NCBI GenBank assembly: GCA_937889595.1
Contig: CALAOR010000052.1
Span: 1 to 49,686, forward strand
DNA from: an uncultured bacterium
Lineage (GTDB): Bacteria; Oederibacteriota; PGYV01; Palsa-1178
Direction: 5' to 3'
Length of the DNA stretch: 49,686 nt
Part shown: positions 38,636-48,841 of the stretch, one piece after another
How positions within the stretch are numbered: position 1 is the stretch's first letter
Layout: each line of letters starts with the position of its first letter
Made by a program: the position numbers and the translations under genes
The notes under the pieces: generated by a model
The model's input: only the letters and a program-made list of their open reading frames with translations
Database searches by the model: none
What the model was told of the DNA's origin: nothing

Positions 38636-38732
<97 letters not shown>

Positions 38733-38776
38733 AGAGAGTAGAAAGTTGAGCAGTAGATAGTAGAAGGACAAAACGT

Positions 38777-38852
38777 GCGCCTGTAGCTCAGTGGATCAGA
38801 GCATTGGCCTCCGAAGCCATGTGCGGGGGTTCAATTCCCTCCAGGCGCACCA
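38777..38852 (+). tRNA. tRNA-Arg (anticodon CCG)
   Basis: 76 bases with encoded CCA. Acceptor GCGCCTG/CAGGCGC; anticodon stem TTGGC/GCCAT, with one mismatch at the top pair, and loop CTCCGAA gives CCG; T arm GGGGG-TTCAATT-CCCTC. It reads CGG codons. Confidence 0.95.
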
Positions 38853-38878
38853 CGAATTTCCGCTGACGCAGAAATTCG
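38853..38878 (+). terminator. Hairpin after tRNA-Arg
   Basis: CGAATTTC and GAAATTCG enclose CGCTGACGCA directly after the CCA end. Same position as the hairpins after the other two tRNAs, with different arm sequence. Confidence 0.5.
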
Positions 38879-38915
38879 AGAGAGTAGAAAGTTGAGCAGT
38901 AGATAGTAGACAAAC

Positions 38916-38971
38916 ACAGAACATAGAACACAGAACATAGAACACAGAACATAGAACACAGAACATAGAAC
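38916..38971 (+). repeat. 14-bp tandem repeat, four copies
   Basis: ACAGAACATAGAAC occurs four times without interruption between tRNA-Arg and tRNA-His. Before it is a copy of the GAGAGAGTAGAAAGTTGAGC spacer (38877-38915) also seen at 38733-38765. Confidence 0.9.
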
Positions 38972-38985
38972 AATGAAAATACGGT

Positions 38986-39063
38986 GGTAGGTGTAGTTCA
39001 GTTGGTTAGAACGCCAGGATGTGGCCCTGGAGGTCGCGGGTTCGACTCCCGTCACTTACCCCA
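38986..39063 (+). tRNA. tRNA-His (anticodon GTG)
   Basis: G-1 at 38986, acceptor GTAGGTG/CACTTAC (one G-T pair), discriminator C and encoded CCA (39061-39063). Anticodon stem CCAGG/CCTGG with loop ATGTGGC gives GTG. The G-1/C73 pair is the histidine identity mark. Its last 65 bases are duplicated at 44273-44337. Confidence 0.97.
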
Positions 39064-39265
39064 AAATTTTGCTTGAGCAAAATTTTCGAGCAATCGAACA
39101 TCCGATATTTGAGCATTCGAAAATACGAGGCTCGATTGCGGTCGAATGCTCGACTGTTCGAATGCTCGACTGTTCGAATGCTCGACTGTTCGAATGCTCG
39201 ACTGTTCGAATGCTCGACTGTTCGAATGCTCGACTGTTCGAATGCTCGACTGTTCGAATGCTCGG
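38999..39265 (+). repeat. Left direct repeat bounding the accessory island (tRNA-His 3' part plus 16-bp tandem repeats)
   Basis: From base 38999 inside tRNA-His the sequence matches 44273 onward for 145 bases with one mismatch (39144/44418), and the match continues into the tandem repeats. The 16-bp unit CGAATGCTCGACTGTT occurs seven times (39143-39254) plus an 11-base partial copy ending CTCGG, against about 1.7 copies on the right. Confidence 0.95.
39063..39086 (+). terminator. Hairpin after tRNA-His
   Basis: AAAATTTTGC and GCAAAATTTT with a TTGA loop, starting at the last base of the CCA. A copy is carried with the partial tRNA at 44337-44360. Confidence 0.55.
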
Positions 39266-39304
39266 TATTTTATTTAGAATTATATATGGTTAGGGAGGCT
39301 TTCT

Positions 39305-40735
39305 ATGAAACGAATATCTATTTTTACAATAATTTTATTAATGGCAAATATTATATATTTACAAAAAGTATATTCCAACGGTGGGCCGCTAGATAATGTA
39401 TCTATAAAAGTTTTAGGACGGCATAATTTCAAAAATGTTGAAACTGTACAGCTTGTAAAAGAAGATCTGAATATAACAATTTTAGGTGAATTCATAAAAT
39501 ACGATGTCAACTATGAATTCCTAAATACTGGTGAAGAGATTAAGGTTGATTATGGTTTTCCAATTGAATTTACAAATGAATGGAGCCAAGATCAACACAA
39601 TCCAAATACAAAAGAAATAATCGCTTCATTTGTAATCAATGATAATGGCAATGATTTAAAATATTCAACATCTTTTGAAAAACTAACAACCGGCCGCGGT
39701 GAAGATGATTATCCCAGATGGAACGAGTGGTTTCGCACAAAAATTAATTTTCAGAAGAAAGAACAAAAAAAACTCCGAATTGTTTATACTATCAAAGCAA
39801 CCAATGACGACATGATATTTACAAAAAGTTTTATTCCTGAATATAGTTTAAGGACAACAACATATACTTTTAGTGGAGCCAAATATTGGGGTGACGGGAA
39901 AGCTGGAAGCGTAAACATCACAATTGATGGAAGTGCTTTAGAAAAAACAGGTGGAAAAATAGAATCCATTGAGCCAAAAGGATATGCAAATAAAGGGAAT
40001 ATTTTCACAAAAGAATATCAAGATATATCGATTGGGTCTATCCCCAAACTAATAATTACATATAATAATGAAAAGGGTGCGCTTACGGATTATATTAAAG
40101 ATTTTATGATTCCGATCAAAACAATAAAATCAATAAAGGCCTCTTCAACTTTAGAAGATCCTGCCTCTGGTAATAAGATGTATGATGTAAAAAACCTATT
40201 TGATGGATCATCAGACACTGCCTGGGTGACAAAAATTGGAGACTCTGGCAAAGGCGTAACCATAGAAGTTAAACTCGCTGATTCTAATATTATGGGAATT
40301 GGAATTCTTAACGGTTATCTAAAAAGTGAAAAAACCTTTGCGGAAAATGGGAAAATTACGAGCGTTTATGTAAGTGTGGGGAATGAAAATGGCGTCAGAC
40401 AAACTGATTTATCTGAAAGGAATTATAAAGATTTTAATCCAAACGCGCCGGCATCATTCATAGATTGGATCTTTAAACTTGGCGACGGGTATCAAGAAGC
40501 AAATAAAATTGTAATATTTATTGAAAGTGCCTCACCAGGGACTAAATACAAAGAAATGGCAATTTCTGAATTGTTTATAGTTGGGCGACCATTGGAAGCT
40601 GAAAAAGCAGATAAAGTCGATAAAAAGGATGGACAGAAAGACAACAAAAAAGATGAAATAAAAGACAATAAAAAAGATGATAAGGAAAAAAATGATAAAC
40701 AAAATACACCGTCTTCAGACCTTATGCGTGTATAG
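39305..40735 (+). CDS. Exported protein with a discoidin-like (NADase-type glycan-binding) domain
   Basis: 476 residues, ATG with GGGAGG upstream. Signal peptide about 1-24. The N-terminal half (25-260), with NITILGEFIKYDVNYEFLNT and many beta strands, resembles DUF4424-like secreted domains. Residues about 270-430 (IKASSTLEDP, YDVKNLFDGSSDTAWV, GIGILNGY, AISELFIVG) have the discoidin-like fold called the NADase-type glycan-binding domain. The last 45 residues are almost wholly lysine, aspartate and asparagine. Clearly more AT-rich than core genes. First gene inside the tRNA-His-bounded segment. Function unknown. Confidence 0.7.
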   Translation: MKRISIFTIILLMANIIYLQKVYSNGGPLDNVSIKVLGRHNFKNVETVQLVKEDLNITILGEFIKYDVNYEFLNTGEEIKVDYGFPIEFTNEWSQDQHNPNTKEIIASFVINDNGNDLKYSTSFEKLTTGRGEDDYPRWNEWFRTKINFQKKEQKKLRIVYTIKATNDDMIFTKSFIPEYSLRTTTYTFSGAKYWGDGKAGSVNITIDGSALEKTGGKIESIEPKGYANKGNIFTKEYQDISIGSIPKLIITYNNEKGALTDYIKDFMIPIKTIKSIKASSTLEDPASGNKMYDVKNLFDGSSDTAWVTKIGDSGKGVTIEVKLADSNIMGIGILNGYLKSEKTFAENGKITSVYVSVGNENGVRQTDLSERNYKDFNPNAPASFIDWIFKLGDGYQEANKIVIFIESASPGTKYKEMAISELFIVGRPLEAEKADKVDKKDGQKDNKKDEIKDNKKDDKEKNDKQNTPSSDLMRV

Positions 40736-40784
40736 AAATAATTAATACTGTTACAAAATTGGAGAGGTTGGACAGCCCAAGAGA

Positions 40785-41747
40785 ATGAAGATAAATAGAG
40801 TTCTTTGCTTATGTATTTTTTTATGTCTTGTTTTTAACTATTCGGTAATATATTCTCAAATAACGGGAATAAAAGTCTTAAAAAATAATATTATTTTGAA
40901 ATATAATTCTACAATATACGCGCTGGCGAAAGATCAAATTACTTTAAAAGTTGACGCCCCTGATTTTCAAAAAGTATCATGGTACACAATCTCTCCTATA
41001 CAAAAACAATACGAAATTTATAATTTAAAAAAAGGCAAACACGAACCGATTGACATTGAATATCAAATAAATGAAATTAAAAATTTTCGCGGAAAAGCTG
41101 AGCTTGTTTTAAATGCAGATCACAACGGATTACAATTGGGAACTGTTTTTTATACTGCTTTAAATGACAAGGAAATTGAGTGTTACAGAAATAAACCTAT
41201 TATATCGAAAGGATATCCAGAATTAAAATCAGGAATATCCGTGATTGAATTGGTCGTGCGTAAGGATGATACATATATTGGTTATCTCACCGAACTTTAC
41301 AATGTCCCTTTTGGTCTTATGCCTTTGAGAGTAAATGATAAACATCAGACTGATATGTGTGTTCTTACAGATTGTGCGGAATTTGCTATCTATGGGAAAA
41401 GACGTCAGGGGTTTAAGATTGGCTACTCAGGCCCAGCTAGAATAGAAAAATACCTAAATAAAACGCATAGCGGAGTATTAATCCCTATAATGGTGGACGG
41501 ACAGGTAGTTTATTGTAATAAAGAAACAAATATGCCTTTTTCGCTTTCAAAAAATGGAATCAAACCAGGTGATATAATTCATTTTGGGGATCAAGTTGCG
41601 GTATTTGTAGAAGATAGAGGAGTGAAGGGTATATTGGATCCGGATGATTTAATGTTTTATTCTTTTAATAAGCCACCACGAATTTTAGCAATAAAAGATT
41701 CAGAGTTTAAAAACAGGCCACTAAAAATTTATCAATGGAAATACTAA
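40785..41747 (+). CDS. Exported protein, possibly NlpC/P60-like
   Basis: 320 residues with a signal peptide (about 1-25). Strands fill the first half. From about residue 195, TDCAEFAIYGKRR looks like the catalytic cysteine segment of NlpC/P60 or related papain-like hydrolases (DCSxF), and GIKPGDIIHFGDQVAVFVED like their GDxxxF...HVxIxxG histidine segment, but a glutamine stands where the histidine is expected. It may be inactive or only distantly related. AT-rich. It follows the discoidin-domain gene by 49 bases, perhaps in one operon. Confidence 0.55.
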   Translation: MKINRVLCLCIFLCLVFNYSVIYSQITGIKVLKNNIILKYNSTIYALAKDQITLKVDAPDFQKVSWYTISPIQKQYEIYNLKKGKHEPIDIEYQINEIKNFRGKAELVLNADHNGLQLGTVFYTALNDKEIECYRNKPIISKGYPELKSGISVIELVVRKDDTYIGYLTELYNVPFGLMPLRVNDKHQTDMCVLTDCAEFAIYGKRRQGFKIGYSGPARIEKYLNKTHSGVLIPIMVDGQVVYCNKETNMPFSLSKNGIKPGDIIHFGDQVAVFVEDRGVKGILDPDDLMFYSFNKPPRILAIKDSEFKNRPLKIYQWKY

Positions 41748-41977
41748 TTTATTAAAGATATTTTTTGAAGTGAACTTCCTTTAACTTTTATCTTAATTTT
41801 TTATTCTTTCGGCTTCGCAGATTATACCTGTCTGCAATTGGCTCCTGACGGGCGCGAGGATAAAAGGGGATATGGGTGTGCACTCGTTTGGTCCTAACCT
41901 AATGTACAAACTCTGACTTGTCCTTTGCCTCTTGGAGTGATAAAATAGGGATAAATCAATGGATGAAAGGGGAACTA

Positions 41978-42841
41978 ATGAAGAGGATTTTTATAATCTT
42001 GTTATTATTTTTACCCATTGTATGCTATGCGGACATCAAAACGATTAGAAAATCTATTCATGGAATGGCAATGAACAAAAAGGTAGTGGACAGCCCGGAA
42101 ATAATACCTGTTTCCCCTCCCGGGATAATCAGTGGCGAAGAACGGGCGCGTGTTGTTAAATTTTTGAATTACATTTTTGAAAAAGTAACGGATAATGATC
42201 TGCAGTTAGATGAAACCGTTTGCTATTCCGGCAGAACATATAGAGGATTTTTTATTAAAGCAAACCTCTTAAAAAATTCACCGCCAGTGGAATTGTTTTT
42301 ATATTATAAGCAGGGTGGATGCCATGTCTGCCAACAATCAGGAATTGCGATCGTCAACAAAGATGATACCATAAACGATTTTGTTAATTTTTATGCAAGT
42401 TGGACTTTTTCAGATGTAAGTATAATTAAATATGATGATGAAGGGACCTGTATAATCATAGGCCAAAATGCGAGCAAAGAAGGCGGTAACAGCGGTCCTT
42501 ATTCCGAATGCGAGATATACAGGCTGAATCCAAGGAAAAAATTTGAAAAAATCTATTCAAAACTTCTAATGGAAGACAGCATATTTGGCAATGATGTTGA
42601 TATAGGCGTTACCTTTACTGCTTATGATAAATCAGGCTACAGGGATATTGTTATTAACGAATATCTAAAGCCTCATCCTGTTTCGACTGTCTTAAATAAC
42701 ATGACGGGCGTATTGTCCATGGGTTCGCCGGCAAGTATTGACCAAACCATCACAATATCAATGAAAATATATGAATATAAAGATAAATTAAACAGTATTA
42801 AATGGTTTTTTGAGAATTTATACAGGAAAAAGAAACAATAG
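41978..42841 (+). CDS. Exported protein of unknown function
   Basis: 287 residues from ATG 41978, with AAAGGGG upstream and a good signal peptide (KRIFIILLLFLPIVCYA). An in-frame start at 41918 has neither. A GGCHVCQQ motif (CxxC) lies near residue 113. Strand-rich middle part, helix at the end, positive tail. No family recognised. The 41748-41977 gap has no gene; it contains CTTTCGGCTTCGCAGATT, which faintly resembles sequence near 46200. A copy of the RAYT-remnant 3' end follows the stop. Confidence 0.6.
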   Translation: MKRIFIILLLFLPIVCYADIKTIRKSIHGMAMNKKVVDSPEIIPVSPPGIISGEERARVVKFLNYIFEKVTDNDLQLDETVCYSGRTYRGFFIKANLLKNSPPVELFLYYKQGGCHVCQQSGIAIVNKDDTINDFVNFYASWTFSDVSIIKYDDEGTCIIIGQNASKEGGNSGPYSECEIYRLNPRKKFEKIYSKLLMEDSIFGNDVDIGVTFTAYDKSGYRDIVINEYLKPHPVSTVLNNMTGVLSMGSPASIDQTITISMKIYEYKDKLNSIKWFFENLYRKKKQ

Positions 42842-42866
42842 AACTCCGGGTTCGTGGCATCGGCTG

Positions 42867-42897
42867 AAAAATTCTAAAGGCTCAATACGAGGTCTGA
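42867..42897 (+). mobile_element. 3' end fragment of the RAYT-remnant repeat, split by the IS110-type element
   Basis: AAAAATTCTAAAGGCTCAAT followed by ACGAGGTCTGA matches 46312-46343 and 48808-48838. Its expected continuation, CCACTGA(C/T)CC, is found at 44264-44273 on the other side of the insertion sequence, so the IS landed inside this repeat. Confidence 0.65.
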
Positions 42898-42992
42898 TAA
42901 TATGTTAAGTGTAAATAAATAGCGCACGGTAGTTCCACGCTTTTGGTAAAATGATTTTGTCGAGAAATCAAATATCAAAGGAGGAACTACAC

Positions 42993-44027
42993 ATGCACTA
43001 TGTAGGTGTTGATCTGCACAAAGAACAGTCATGGTTTTACGTTTCAGACAGCGAAGGCAAAAGAGTATTCAGTAAGAGTGTACCAAATTCCGAGGAAACT
43101 TTACATACGGTTTTTAAGGAAATACCGAAGCCGTTCCAATTGGCAGTTGAATCAACGTATAACTGGTACTTTTTTGTTGACATTGCAGAACTCTACGCGG
43201 ATAAGGCATTTTTGGCCAACTCCTACGAGCTGAAAGCGTTTGCAAAACGGAATAAAAAGACAGATAAGATAGATGCCAAACTGATATGCGACGTGCTACG
43301 GAAAGGATACTTGCCTTCTGTCAGAATTGCGCCTAAAAACATAAGGCAGGCCCGTGAATTGCTCAGATACAGAGTGTCGTTAGTAAGGGAAAGAACTTAC
43401 AACATTAACAAATTAAAAGCACTGCTTGATAAGCTGGGTAACATTTCTTCAGGTGATTTTACAACATATAAAAGACTTGATGCAATACGAACGACGGAAC
43501 TACCGGAGATATACGGTTCGGTTATTAATGGGTACATAAGCAGGATCAAGTTTTTAACAGAAAAGATAAGAAAAATGATTTCATATCTGGAGGAAGTTTT
43601 TGGCAATGACGAAGAAGTGCGAAATTTAATCACCGTACCTGGATTGAGTTATTTTAGTGCGGCTCTTGTAAAAAGCGAGATCATATACATATCAGATTTC
43701 ACGTGTTTTAACAGACTATGTTCTTATGCGGGATTGGCTCCCCGGGTAAGTCAGAGCGCAGGTAAAGACGTACACGGGCCGCTTAGCAAAAACCGCAGAA
43801 AAATGTTGCAATGGATCCTGCTGGAAGTAGTTCCACATTTTATAAAGGCAGATACCGAAAGAAAAGAAAAATACGAATGCCTTGCAAAACGGAAGAACCG
43901 GAATACGGCAAAAGTAATTATGGCAAGGGATCTATTAAGAATTATCTATTGTGTACTTAAAGAAAAAAGACCCTATTACGCAAATAACTTTCGGCCTGTG
44001 GCGGGTGTCGCGCTCAACGTGGTCTGA
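42993..44027 (+). CDS. IS110-family transposase (DEDD recombinase)
   Basis: 344 residues from ATG 42993, which has AAAGGAGG 7 bases upstream. The RuvC-like N-terminal domain shows D7 (GVDLHK), E53 (AVESTYNW), D91 and D94 (KTDKIDAKL). The C-terminal Tnp domain has LITVPGLSYFSAALV, FNRLCSYAGLAPRVSQSAG with the candidate nucleophile S253 or S255, and GPLSKNRRKMLQW. All key residues are present, so it may be active. Family enzymes are guided by a bridge RNA from the element's own noncoding end. Confidence 0.95.
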   Translation: MHYVGVDLHKEQSWFYVSDSEGKRVFSKSVPNSEETLHTVFKEIPKPFQLAVESTYNWYFFVDIAELYADKAFLANSYELKAFAKRNKKTDKIDAKLICDVLRKGYLPSVRIAPKNIRQARELLRYRVSLVRERTYNINKLKALLDKLGNISSGDFTTYKRLDAIRTTELPEIYGSVINGYISRIKFLTEKIRKMISYLEEVFGNDEEVRNLITVPGLSYFSAALVKSEIIYISDFTCFNRLCSYAGLAPRVSQSAGKDVHGPLSKNRRKMLQWILLEVVPHFIKADTERKEKYECLAKRKNRNTAKVIMARDLLRIIYCVLKEKRPYYANNFRPVAGVALNVV

Positions 44028-44247
44028 AGTGCCTTTTAGGCAGCTTCGTTAGGTCTGATTAGCGGACATCCGCCGCTCCAATATTATCATGCGTGAGGAT
44101 TGATTCTTCGACGCCGATGGGTGACTGAAGCCGGATTTTTCCGGAGCTTCTATTGATAAACCGTGAGCGGCTGAAAACACAAAAGATTATTATAGAGAAA
44201 AAAGCGTGGAATTTGTTTGACGTCAGAGGTATATTTACCGTTGACAA
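44028..44247 (+). ncRNA. Candidate bridge-RNA region of the IS110-type element
   Basis: Noncoding and structured: GCGGA-CA-TCCGC (about 44063-44074) and GAAGCCGGA-TTTT-TCCGGAGCTTC (44127-44150). In the IS1111 group the guide RNA is read from the 3' noncoding end; the position fits. No transcript start or target-matching loops were confirmed. Confidence 0.4.
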
Positions 44248-44272
44248 ACACTTACATGGGTGACCACTGATC

Positions 44273-44443
44273 CAGTTGGTTAGAACGCCAGGATGTGGCC
44301 CTGGAGGTCGCGGGTTCGACTCCCGTCACTTACCCCAAAATTTTGCTTGAGCAAAATTTTCGAGCAATCGAACATCCGATATTTGAGCATTCGAAAATAC
44401 GAGGCTCGATTGCGGTCAAATGCTCGACTGTTCGAATGCTCGG
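44273..44443 (+). repeat. Right direct repeat: partial tRNA-His (65 bases) with downstream sequence
   Basis: Starts at D-loop position CAGTTGGTTAG and includes the anticodon and T arms, CCA, the following hairpin and 1.7 units of the 16-bp repeat. The 5' acceptor strand is missing, so no functional tRNA is made. One further unit-like stretch (CAATGCTCGACTGTTCGAA) is at about 44490-44509. Confidence 0.95.
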
Positions 44444-44545: not shown

Positions 44546-44914
44546 ATGTCTGACTTCATGTTCGAAAATCTCGAAGTCTACCAAAAATCCGTTAATTTCG
44601 CCGACGAAGTTTCCGATATTATTGAAAAACTCGAAAGGGGTTACTATCACATCCGTGACCAGTTCGGCAGGGCGTCTTTATCCATATCCCTGAACATAGC
44701 CGAAGGCAACGGCAAATGGCACATAGCTGACAGGAAAAAATACTTCCTCACAGCCCGCGGCTCGGCATTCGAATGCGTGCCCCTGCTCGAAATATGTAAA
44801 CGAAGGAAAATAATTACTGAAGAACAGCATGATAGTTTAAAGCAAAAAATCAAAAGTATTTCGATGATGTTGTCAAAATTAATCAGCGGCACGGATAATA
44901 GAGAAAGCGATTGA
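44546..44914 (+). CDS. Four-helix-bundle protein (23S rRNA intervening-sequence type)
   Basis: 122 residues. FENLEVYQKSVNFADEVSDI, DQFGRASLSISLNIAEGNGK, KYFLTARGSAFECVPLLEIC are the standard pattern of the family first found in 23S rRNA intervening sequences and often encoded near repeats and mobile DNA in candidate phyla. Its role is unknown; variants are linked to diversity-generating elements. It begins right after the partial tRNA-His repeat, with the ribosome site in a hairpin loop. Confidence 0.9.
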   Translation: MSDFMFENLEVYQKSVNFADEVSDIIEKLERGYYHIRDQFGRASLSISLNIAEGNGKWHIADRKKYFLTARGSAFECVPLLEICKRRKIITEEQHDSLKQKIKSISMMLSKLISGTDNRESD

Positions 44915-45060: not shown

Positions 45061-46149
45061 ATGAAAAAAACAATACAAATAATTACTATTTTACTTTATG
45101 TAATTTGTTTTTCATACAATTTATATGCGGTAATGTCAAAAGAAGAGTCTGAAAAATGGGAAAAAGAATTTCGTGATAAATATTGTTATGATATGACCAC
45201 TGACGAAAAATCAAAAATGTTGGACCAACAAAAGGGTATTACATATTGTGCAAAAGAACAAGGTTCTGCATATTTTGTATTTTATGAAATTCCAAATAGA
45301 CACGATCATGGCGCTCCACCCGGTGTTTGCGGGTTTAGAGTGGATATATTTGAAAAAAATAACAGGAATGAATATATAAAAAAGGGCAGATGGGAAGATT
45401 TAAACGGCGGCGATATTGATTATGATGTGATAATTTGTGCAAAGTATTGTGCTTTCAAAATTTGGACCGAAACAATAAAAGGCAGAGATTACAATAACTC
45501 AAAAGGGGGATGTTTTAGAGTAATAATAGATGATAAAGGGAAATTATTGGCGAAAGTTAAATATGATGGAAGCCGCGAATGGGTAAAATTAAATAATAAA
45601 TATTTATTGTGGGATCAATCAAGTGAGAGTGTGGCATTAAGAAATCCCGACATGAGCGCTGTATGGATTATCAATGAGAAAGCAAATGATTCTGGAGACA
45701 TATCGCCGGACTGCAAATATAGTTATCGGCGAATCGGGCCCGAAGGAAAAGAAATTGAAATATATGGTGTTGACGGAAAATACAGGAAAAAATTTATATT
45801 GCCTTTTTTTGATGATGTTGCTCATAAAAGTATTCCTGCAATAAATGACAAACAAGAAATTATTATACGATTAGACCATAATATATATACTGCTGATTTA
45901 AAAGGAAACACAAAACTTGTTGCAGTTTTGCCGTTTTATAAAGGATACTACATAGGAGAGGATAATTTTTTAAAAAGCAATAGTTTTGATTTTGATTATC
46001 AAAAAGATGGTATTTGTGATTTTGATTATAAGGCACATCCAGGAACCAAAAAAATGAAATATGATCCAATAATATTATTTGATGTGAATACTTATGAAAT
46101 CAAAGAGTCATTGGATAATAAAAAAACATGGAATAGTATTAAAAACTGA
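45061..46149 (+). CDS. Exported protein of unknown function
   Basis: 362 residues. AAAAGGAGG precedes the ATG by 5 bases. Signal peptide about 1-23 (IITILLYVICFSYNLYA). The mature part is rich in beta strands with repeated D/N-K turns, suggesting a propeller-like fold (VRIIDDKGKLLAKVKYDG, EIEIYGVDGKYRKKFILP, NIYTADLKGNTKLVAVLP). About eight cysteines are scattered in the first half. Very AT-rich, like 39305-42841. No family recognised. It stands alone behind the nested palindrome at 44944. Confidence 0.65.
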   Translation: MKKTIQIITILLYVICFSYNLYAVMSKEESEKWEKEFRDKYCYDMTTDEKSKMLDQQKGITYCAKEQGSAYFVFYEIPNRHDHGAPPGVCGFRVDIFEKNNRNEYIKKGRWEDLNGGDIDYDVIICAKYCAFKIWTETIKGRDYNNSKGGCFRVIIDDKGKLLAKVKYDGSREWVKLNNKYLLWDQSSESVALRNPDMSAVWIINEKANDSGDISPDCKYSYRRIGPEGKEIEIYGVDGKYRKKFILPFFDDVAHKSIPAINDKQEIIIRLDHNIYTADLKGNTKLVAVLPFYKGYYIGEDNFLKSNSFDFDYQKDGICDFDYKAHPGTKKMKYDPIILFDVNTYEIKESLDNKKTWNSIKN

Positions 46150-46231: not shown

Positions 46232-46350
46232 AGGACTGGACACAGGCAGCATCGGATACTCATAGCCGGCGCAGTATATCATGTGACATCCAGCTGTGGC
46301 GAAGCAGAAGTTAAAAATTCTACAGGCTCAATACGGAGTCTGACCACTGA
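46232..46350 (+). pseudogene. Decayed N-terminus of a REP-associated (Y1/RAYT) transposase, copy 1
   Basis: The frame from about 46238 reads GHRQHRILIAGAVYHVTSSC followed by GEAEVK, matching the RAYT start (R-I-x-IxGxxYHVTSRG). It then goes straight into the shared 3' sequence AAAAATTCTACAGGCTCAAT, ACGGAGTCTGACCACTGACCC. The rest of the transposase, including the catalytic tyrosine, is gone. The remaining bases between 46150 and 46395 show no gene. Confidence 0.6.
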
Positions 46351-48644: not shown

Positions 48645-48838
48645 AGAACTCGTATTGAGCCCTTACGAGATTTTTTTGATGTGATAGATTTTGTTAAGCG
48701 AATTAGTCATATAACAATATTGGGGTAAAACGGATGGGCAGGCAGTTTCGTATACTCATAGCCGGCGAAGTACATCATATGACATCCAGATGTGGCGAAT
48801 CAGAAGTGAAAATTCTAAAGGCTCAAAACGAGGTATGA
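48645..48838 (+). pseudogene. RAYT transposase remnant, copy 2, with terminal inverted repeats
   Basis: ATG 48734 begins a 34-residue frame, MGRQFRILIAGEVHHMTSRC then GESEVKILKAQNEV and TGA at 48836. It matches the Y1/RAYT transposase N-terminus and the copy at 46232. The 3' end (48808-48835) is nearly the inverse of ACTCGTATTGAGCCCTTACG at 48646-48665, so this is a roughly 190-base element with inverted ends. The rest of 48606-48733 has no gene. Confidence 0.6.
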
Positions 48839-48841
48839 CCA

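Follow-up and report, generated by a model that had tools for sequence, protein, structure and literature searches.

A tRNA-3'-end element, apparently undescribed and linked to PF05635 proteins, as the probable basis of a 170-nucleotide repeat at tRNA-His

The window considered here, contig CALAOR010000052.1 of GenBank assembly GCA_937889595.1 (49,686 nucleotides (nt), from an uncultured bacterium of the phylum Oederibacteriota), carries an intact tRNA-His gene of which the 3' part recurs about 5 kb downstream, together with the DNA that follows it. What is this repeat, and did it bring in the genes that lie between its copies? The reading favoured here, with a probability of about 0.7, is that the repeat represents two copies of a tRNA-3'-end element, a member of an apparently undescribed family linked to proteins of PF05635 (23S_rRNA_IVP or S23p). 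It builds on direct observations of the location and structure of the units, of the clade to which their proteins belong, and of units that are gene-less, stand in tandem or are joined to a truncated tRNA.

The repeat and the unit to which it belongs

The two copies (Table 1) form a direct repeat of 170 nt with one mismatch (99% identity) and a spacing of 5274 nt, well above chance. A preliminary description of the window had reported a partial copy of tRNA-His comprising 65 nt of the tRNA and 105 nt downstream, and this holds: the repeat spans tRNA nucleotides 13-77 plus 105 nt past the tRNA end. That description lacked the PF05635 gene behind copy 2, the repeat resembling repetitive extragenic palindromes (REP-like repeat) that abuts copy 2, and the elements behind the neighbouring tRNA-Pro and tRNA-Arg genes. 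The 105 nt consist of a hairpin at the tRNA terminus, followed by a long imperfect stem of short words (similar to TCGAATGCTCGACTGT) and their complement; compared with shuffled sequences, the predicted RNA fold has z = -6.25 for copy 1 and z = -5.96 for copy 2. The repeat is unusually long because it includes this hairpin and stem element, of which further examples follow most tRNAs of this genome as well as tRNA and tmRNA (transfer-messenger RNA) genes in other phyla.

Units of this kind are built from up to four parts. The first is a hairpin that begins in the last bases of the tRNA and whose outer pair fits the tRNA end, being A-T for A73, G-C for G73, and CCA-TGG if CCA is encoded. The second is a near-constant AGAGC after the hairpin; in the independent set of loci described below, the next bases are mostly AGAG. 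The third is a stem formed by repeats of short words with their complement; its right arm mostly opens with GCGGTC. Complete units have a fourth part, a gene for a four-helix-bundle protein of 115-125 amino acids that ends at or near the right edge of the unit. The stem is stable (fold z about -6 in units, and about -6 to -7 for the tRNA-His, tRNA-Asn and tRNA-Lys elements), and the open reading frame (ORF) is located behind it, not within it. Copy 2 belongs to a complete unit with the PF05635 gene on its 3' side, while copy 1, on the working tRNA-His, is gene-less. The protein encoded behind copy 2 matches PF05635 with 91.8 bits (Pfam cut-off 33.8), and the profile matches PDB entry 2GSC at 1e-15.

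A strict hairpin, one including the tRNA's own 3' end, follows 23 of the 40 tRNAs of this genome; such a hairpin was absent from shuffled sequences and from all 49 tRNAs of three genomes from other phyla, and shifted positions gave 0.2%. Words follow in most cases. Tandem arrays also occur in or beside the elements: a 16-bp array is expanded in copy 1 only, and a 14-bp array occupies positions 38913-38982.

PF05635 genes behind tRNA and tmRNA genes

The association with tRNAs extends to PF05635 genes of the phylum and its outgroups, of which 19 of 71 have a same-strand tRNA or transfer-messenger RNA (tmRNA) gene at most 800 nt upstream; none has one on the opposite strand, and 0.5 would be expected. 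The tRNA-linked proteins form one clade in the tree (support 100/100), with 16 of its 18 members linked to a tRNA, the window's copy 2 counted; of the remaining two, one has a contig edge inside its hairpin and the other lies behind a tRNA-Glu remnant. Outside the clade, 2 of 47 PF05635 proteins on the tree are encoded near tRNAs. An independent set of 80 loci was obtained by scanning public genomes with a profile of the clade, and includes Planctomycetota, Omnitrophota, Elusimicrobia, FCPU426, Firestonebacteria, Glassbacteria, and others. Against about 1.3 expected, 56 genes of this set are preceded at 114-402 nt by an intact tRNA or tmRNA on their own strand, and 0 by one on the opposite strand. 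The terminal hairpin is present at 46 of these 56 loci (0.2% in shuffles), and 34 of them have GCGGTC (1.75 expected). In many bacterial phyla, elements of this kind immediately follow tRNA and tmRNA genes. Rfam identified only the tRNA or tmRNA, and no other RNA family, at nine such loci.

Two further arrangements of PF05635 genes were seen. In a genome of another group (G052) there are 19 PF05635 matches, many of them paired in inverted orientation with less than 200 nt between the two. At L054, L060, L067, L077, and L271, PF05635 genes away from tRNAs also come after word repeats, directly behind the stop codon or terminator of a protein gene; units of words plus PF05635 may target the 3' ends of genes generally.

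At six loci a second unit begins directly after the PF05635 stop codon, which defines the right end of the unit; units in tandem include 2-4 nt from the end of the tRNA. Among the 24 loci that lack an intact tRNA, most either lie at a contig edge or have a 5'-truncated tRNA 3' end, as copy 2 does. The locus L316 shares the layout of the window, with an intact tRNA-Pro and hairpin, 2 kb of DNA, and then a truncated tRNA-Pro that is followed by a hairpin and a PF05635 gene. Truncated matches of 10-15 nt are weak taken alone, given that 36 of 559 control windows have a match of at least 22 bits reaching the tRNA 3' end, some of these being true tRNAs.

In aligned sequences the window's tRNA-His is identical at 76 of 77 positions to that of two genomes of another family (G005 and G013), which also carry the element; members of the window's own family have a tRNA-His more divergent from it than this. 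G010, a congener of G005 and G013 with common flanks, lacks the element and has another tRNA-His. The close match across families and the element-less congener suggest, from sequence comparison, that the tRNA plus element moved laterally.

Candidate sources of mobility were considered. No reverse transcriptase (PF00078) is present in this genome or six relatives, so that a route through RNA copying is unlikely there, and an origin by reverse transcription was rejected. A viral origin of the element was also rejected, as nothing matched in viral_contigs scans. Transposases of the Y1/RAYT type, a class that acts on hairpins, are encoded in 11 of 11 element-bearing genomes tested, and mobilisation of the units in trans by these enzymes is possible.

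Under the favoured reading, a unit would be transcribed together with its tRNA and would be removed during 3' maturation of the tRNA, by analogy with the removal of intervening sequences (IVSs) from 23S rRNA by RNase III; it may be a small selfish element, spreading without disruption of the tRNA. A broader version is put forward tentatively, at somewhat less than even odds: these would be cross-phylum selfish elements specific to tRNA and tmRNA 3' ends, in which insertion forms the hairpin through an inverted copy of the tRNA terminus, the word stem follows, a dedicated protein of the S23p clade drives spread, and gene-less copies ride along.

Several points weigh against the favoured reading. 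We know of no mobility enzyme in PF05635, and transposition, excision, and RNA processing of the units are predictions. The units without a gene that follow most tRNAs might just as well be a domesticated feature of the host. Strict hairpins are rarer in G005, which is of the same order (4 of 35 tRNAs), and controls in which arms were swapped gave only a moderate contrast (own arms complementary in 22 of 56 versus 9.7% swapped, and in 23 of 51 versus 12%), because the words are common to different elements. How the 5-kb interval arose is something we infer. In a draft metagenome-assembled genome (MAG), moreover, a repeat of 170 bp could be an assembly error.

Origin of the two copies and of the DNA between them

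Table 1. Features of the tRNA-His region of the window, in order of position
Feature	Coordinates	Strand	Basis
tRNA-Pro (TGG), first of three tRNAs	38636..38712	+	ARAGORN
Gene-less element 3' of tRNA-Pro: palindrome CCATTTTTGC-TTC-GCAAAAATGG including the tRNA's CCA, then words AGAGAGTAGAAAGTTGAGCAGTAGATAGTAGA	38710..38764	+	
tRNA-Arg (CCG)	38777..38852	+	
Gene-less element 3' of tRNA-Arg: another hairpin, words of the tRNA-Pro element (repeat D5), then 14-bp array	38853..38982	+	
Intact tRNA-His (GTG)	38987..39063	+	
Repeat copy 1: tRNA-His nt 13-77, terminal hairpin (~39064-39085), word stem (from 39086)	38999..39168	+	
Expanded array of 16-bp word TCGAATGCTCGACTGT in copy 1	39142..39264	+	
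AT-rich gene whose exported product has an F5/8-type C domain (PF25302)	39305..40735	+	
AT-rich gene, exported protein, no Pfam family	40785..41747	+	
AT-rich gene, exported protein, no Pfam family; reading frame open from 41918 as well	41966..42841	+	
Left part of REP-like repeat split by insertion sequence	42862..42897	+	Comparison with other copies
IS110-family element (transposase ORF 42951-44027)	42898..44263	+	Ends inferred from related copies
Right remainder of REP-like repeat, abutting copy 2	44264..44272	+	
Repeat copy 2: 5'-truncated tRNA-His (nt 13-77), hairpin (~44337-44360), word stem (~44361-44442)	44273..44442	+	
PF05635 (23S_rRNA_IVP / S23p) four-helix-bundle gene, 122 amino acids, intact, tRNA-linked clade	44546..44914	+	E=4e-26
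AT-rich gene, exported protein, beyond the repeat pair, 30.7% GC	45061..46149	+	

Between the copies are three AT-rich genes encoding exported proteins, together with an insertion sequence (IS), with no integrase encoded among the ORFs of 39-46 kb, much as the preliminary description had it. The exported-protein genes have a GC content of 31-35%, copy 2 of 49%, and the PF05635 gene of 42%. Among 44 other genomes of the phylum, the four AT-rich exported proteins of Table 1 have no counterpart save one weak match of 70 residues to the F5/8-type domain (in G020). The proposal that the two copies bound the accessory DNA was not confirmed: AT-rich exported-protein genes run past copy 2 to 46.15 kb, and the unit of copy 2 and the PF05635 gene lies within an AT-rich zone. 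The two copies thus do not mark the clean edges of an island.

The IS encodes a transposase with DEDD and Transposase_20 domains (PF01548 and PF02371), and its ends were defined from 69%-identical copies in the same genome. These ends exclude the 170-nt repeat, and the insertion site is the REP-like repeat whose last bases touch copy 2. Since the IS110 element ends before the 170-nt repeat, leaves out the tRNA, and is inserted in the REP-like repeat, it did not make the repeat and was rejected as its source. The REP-like repeat itself is about 110 bp long, resembles the start of a RAYT gene, and has many copies, among them positions 46240-46340 and 48730-48840 of the window and others on contigs C48, C79, C14, and C20 of this genome (G000).

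For the interval itself the favoured account is recombination between identical copies of tRNA-His and its element, by which a molecule with one such copy would have integrated through a single crossover. This is weaker than the identification of the repeat and is offered tentatively, at a little under even odds. A tRNA-linked element is involved, and the alternatives to an island named in the preliminary description, recombination between repeats or an undescribed element, were in the right direction.

A less probable account, though one with several points in its favour, is that copy 2 was transposed, the unit and a 5'-truncated piece of tRNA having been copied into the end of the REP-like repeat within a pre-existing AT-rich region. 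The host-like GC content of the copy 2 and PF05635 unit inside the AT-rich zone would fit, as would the truncated-tRNA units elsewhere (L316 with the layout of the window), the few tRNA nucleotides carried by tandem units, and the general presence of Y1/RAYT-type transposases. However, copy 1 lacks the PF05635 gene and is no complete donor, the RNA-copying route is disfavoured by the missing reverse transcriptases, and islands can account for the truncated tRNAs found elsewhere.

A classical tyrosine-integrase island in tRNA-His, which would have restored the tRNA with a 3' end of its own, moved the old 3' end together with element and PF05635 gene out to position 44273, and afterwards lost the integrase, is considered unlikely. 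The direct repeat of the tRNA 3' part and a cargo of AT-rich genes found in this genome only are what such an island would leave. A parallel exists at L310, where a 44-nt tRNA-Pro 3' fragment, which starts in the anticodon loop and is accompanied by an element and a PF05635 gene, lies beside a 535-amino-acid ORF resembling a tyrosine recombinase; this is probably the end of an island that carried off the tRNA end with the element, and several other truncated tRNA fragments likewise begin in the anticodon or T loop. In the window, however, there is neither an integrase nor an integrase remnant, the identity 105 nt past the tRNA means that the incoming attachment site (attP) would have needed the same hairpin element, and AT-rich DNA goes on for 1.2 kb beyond the repeat. 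Of the island footprint first proposed for this locus, the tRNA-linked element is retained and the classical island is not, for these same reasons.

It is also unlikely that the hairpin and word structures are 3' trailer features of host tRNAs that signal termination or maturation, the PF05635 proteins being host factors and nothing being mobile. Their presence behind most tRNAs of this genome, the excess of gene-less over complete copies, and the adaptation of the hairpin to the tRNA end are all consistent with such a role; the patchy occurrence at the same tRNA among congeners (G010 without, G005 and G013 with), the rarity of strict hairpins in G005, the tandem units, and the truncated-tRNA copies away from intact tRNAs argue against it. 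An assembly artefact joining two loci through the 170-bp repeat is very improbable, for although the draft MAG is in 93 contigs and the repeat is about as long as a short read, the copies differ at one base and in the length of the 16-bp array, they have different flanks that are continuous on one contig, and intact tRNA-His occurs once in the whole assembly.

Relation to 23S rRNA intervening sequences and other systems

IVSs that encode S23p, treated as a hypothetical protein, are known from the 23S rRNA genes of Coxiella and Leptospira, where they are located within 23S helices and excised by RNase III (PMC4990558). The units described here resemble them in the PF05635 protein, perhaps in the complementary ends that form a stem, in the presumed location in a stable-RNA transcription unit, and in a sporadic distribution suggesting horizontal spread. 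They differ in lying behind the 3' ends of tRNA and tmRNA genes and not inside 23S rRNA genes, in adding a tRNA-end hairpin and word-repeat stems, and in having the gene behind the stem and not inside it. By anatomy they are an apparently undescribed variant of IVS/S23p elements, though outside the 23S rRNA location that defines these. rRNA insertions of candidate phyla radiation (CPR) bacteria share PF05635 ORFs within insertions in stable-RNA genes; these are inside 16S and 23S rRNA genes, and tRNA is unmentioned (PMC11270868). 23S_rRNA_IVP genes have also been reported in cas loci (PMC3936711). No description of PF05635, TIGR02436, or S23 elements at tRNAs was found in the literature searched, which covers few subscription papers.

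Other systems share single traits with the units. REPIN/RAYT systems also have numerous gene-less palindromic copies and few gene-bearing ones; the gene-bearing units at tRNA ends, in contrast, carry only PF05635 and no Y1 transposase, and their location is tied to tRNA ends. tRNA-targeted integrative islands likewise show a direct repeat of the tRNA 3' part around accessory genes, whereas the window has no integrase, a repeat reaching past the tRNA, and copies that do not bound the AT-rich DNA. Diversity-generating retroelements, whose Avd protein is a four-helix bundle linked to a reverse transcriptase, differ by that enzyme, for which this genome and its six relatives were negative.

To our knowledge, both the spread of S23p-encoding IVSs and the function of S23p are open questions. 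The clade linked to tRNA and tmRNA genes, with its terminus-copying hairpins, tandem and gene-less units, and a pair of occupied and empty sites, is a testable system for both. The locus also advises caution, as repeats flanking a tRNA are not always the boundaries of an island.

A different arrangement was seen at two other tRNAs of this genome, L128 (G000:C89:122865-123414) and L129 (G000:C48:55961-56443), where an intact tRNA-Gly and an intact tRNA-Lys, respectively, are each followed by a second copy. In these second copies the D loop is interrupted by about 80 nt (a small hairpin, ATGAGAGG...CATCTC) and the 5' acceptor strand is altered (GCGTCAG); the D-loop insert is perhaps another tRNA-inserted element.

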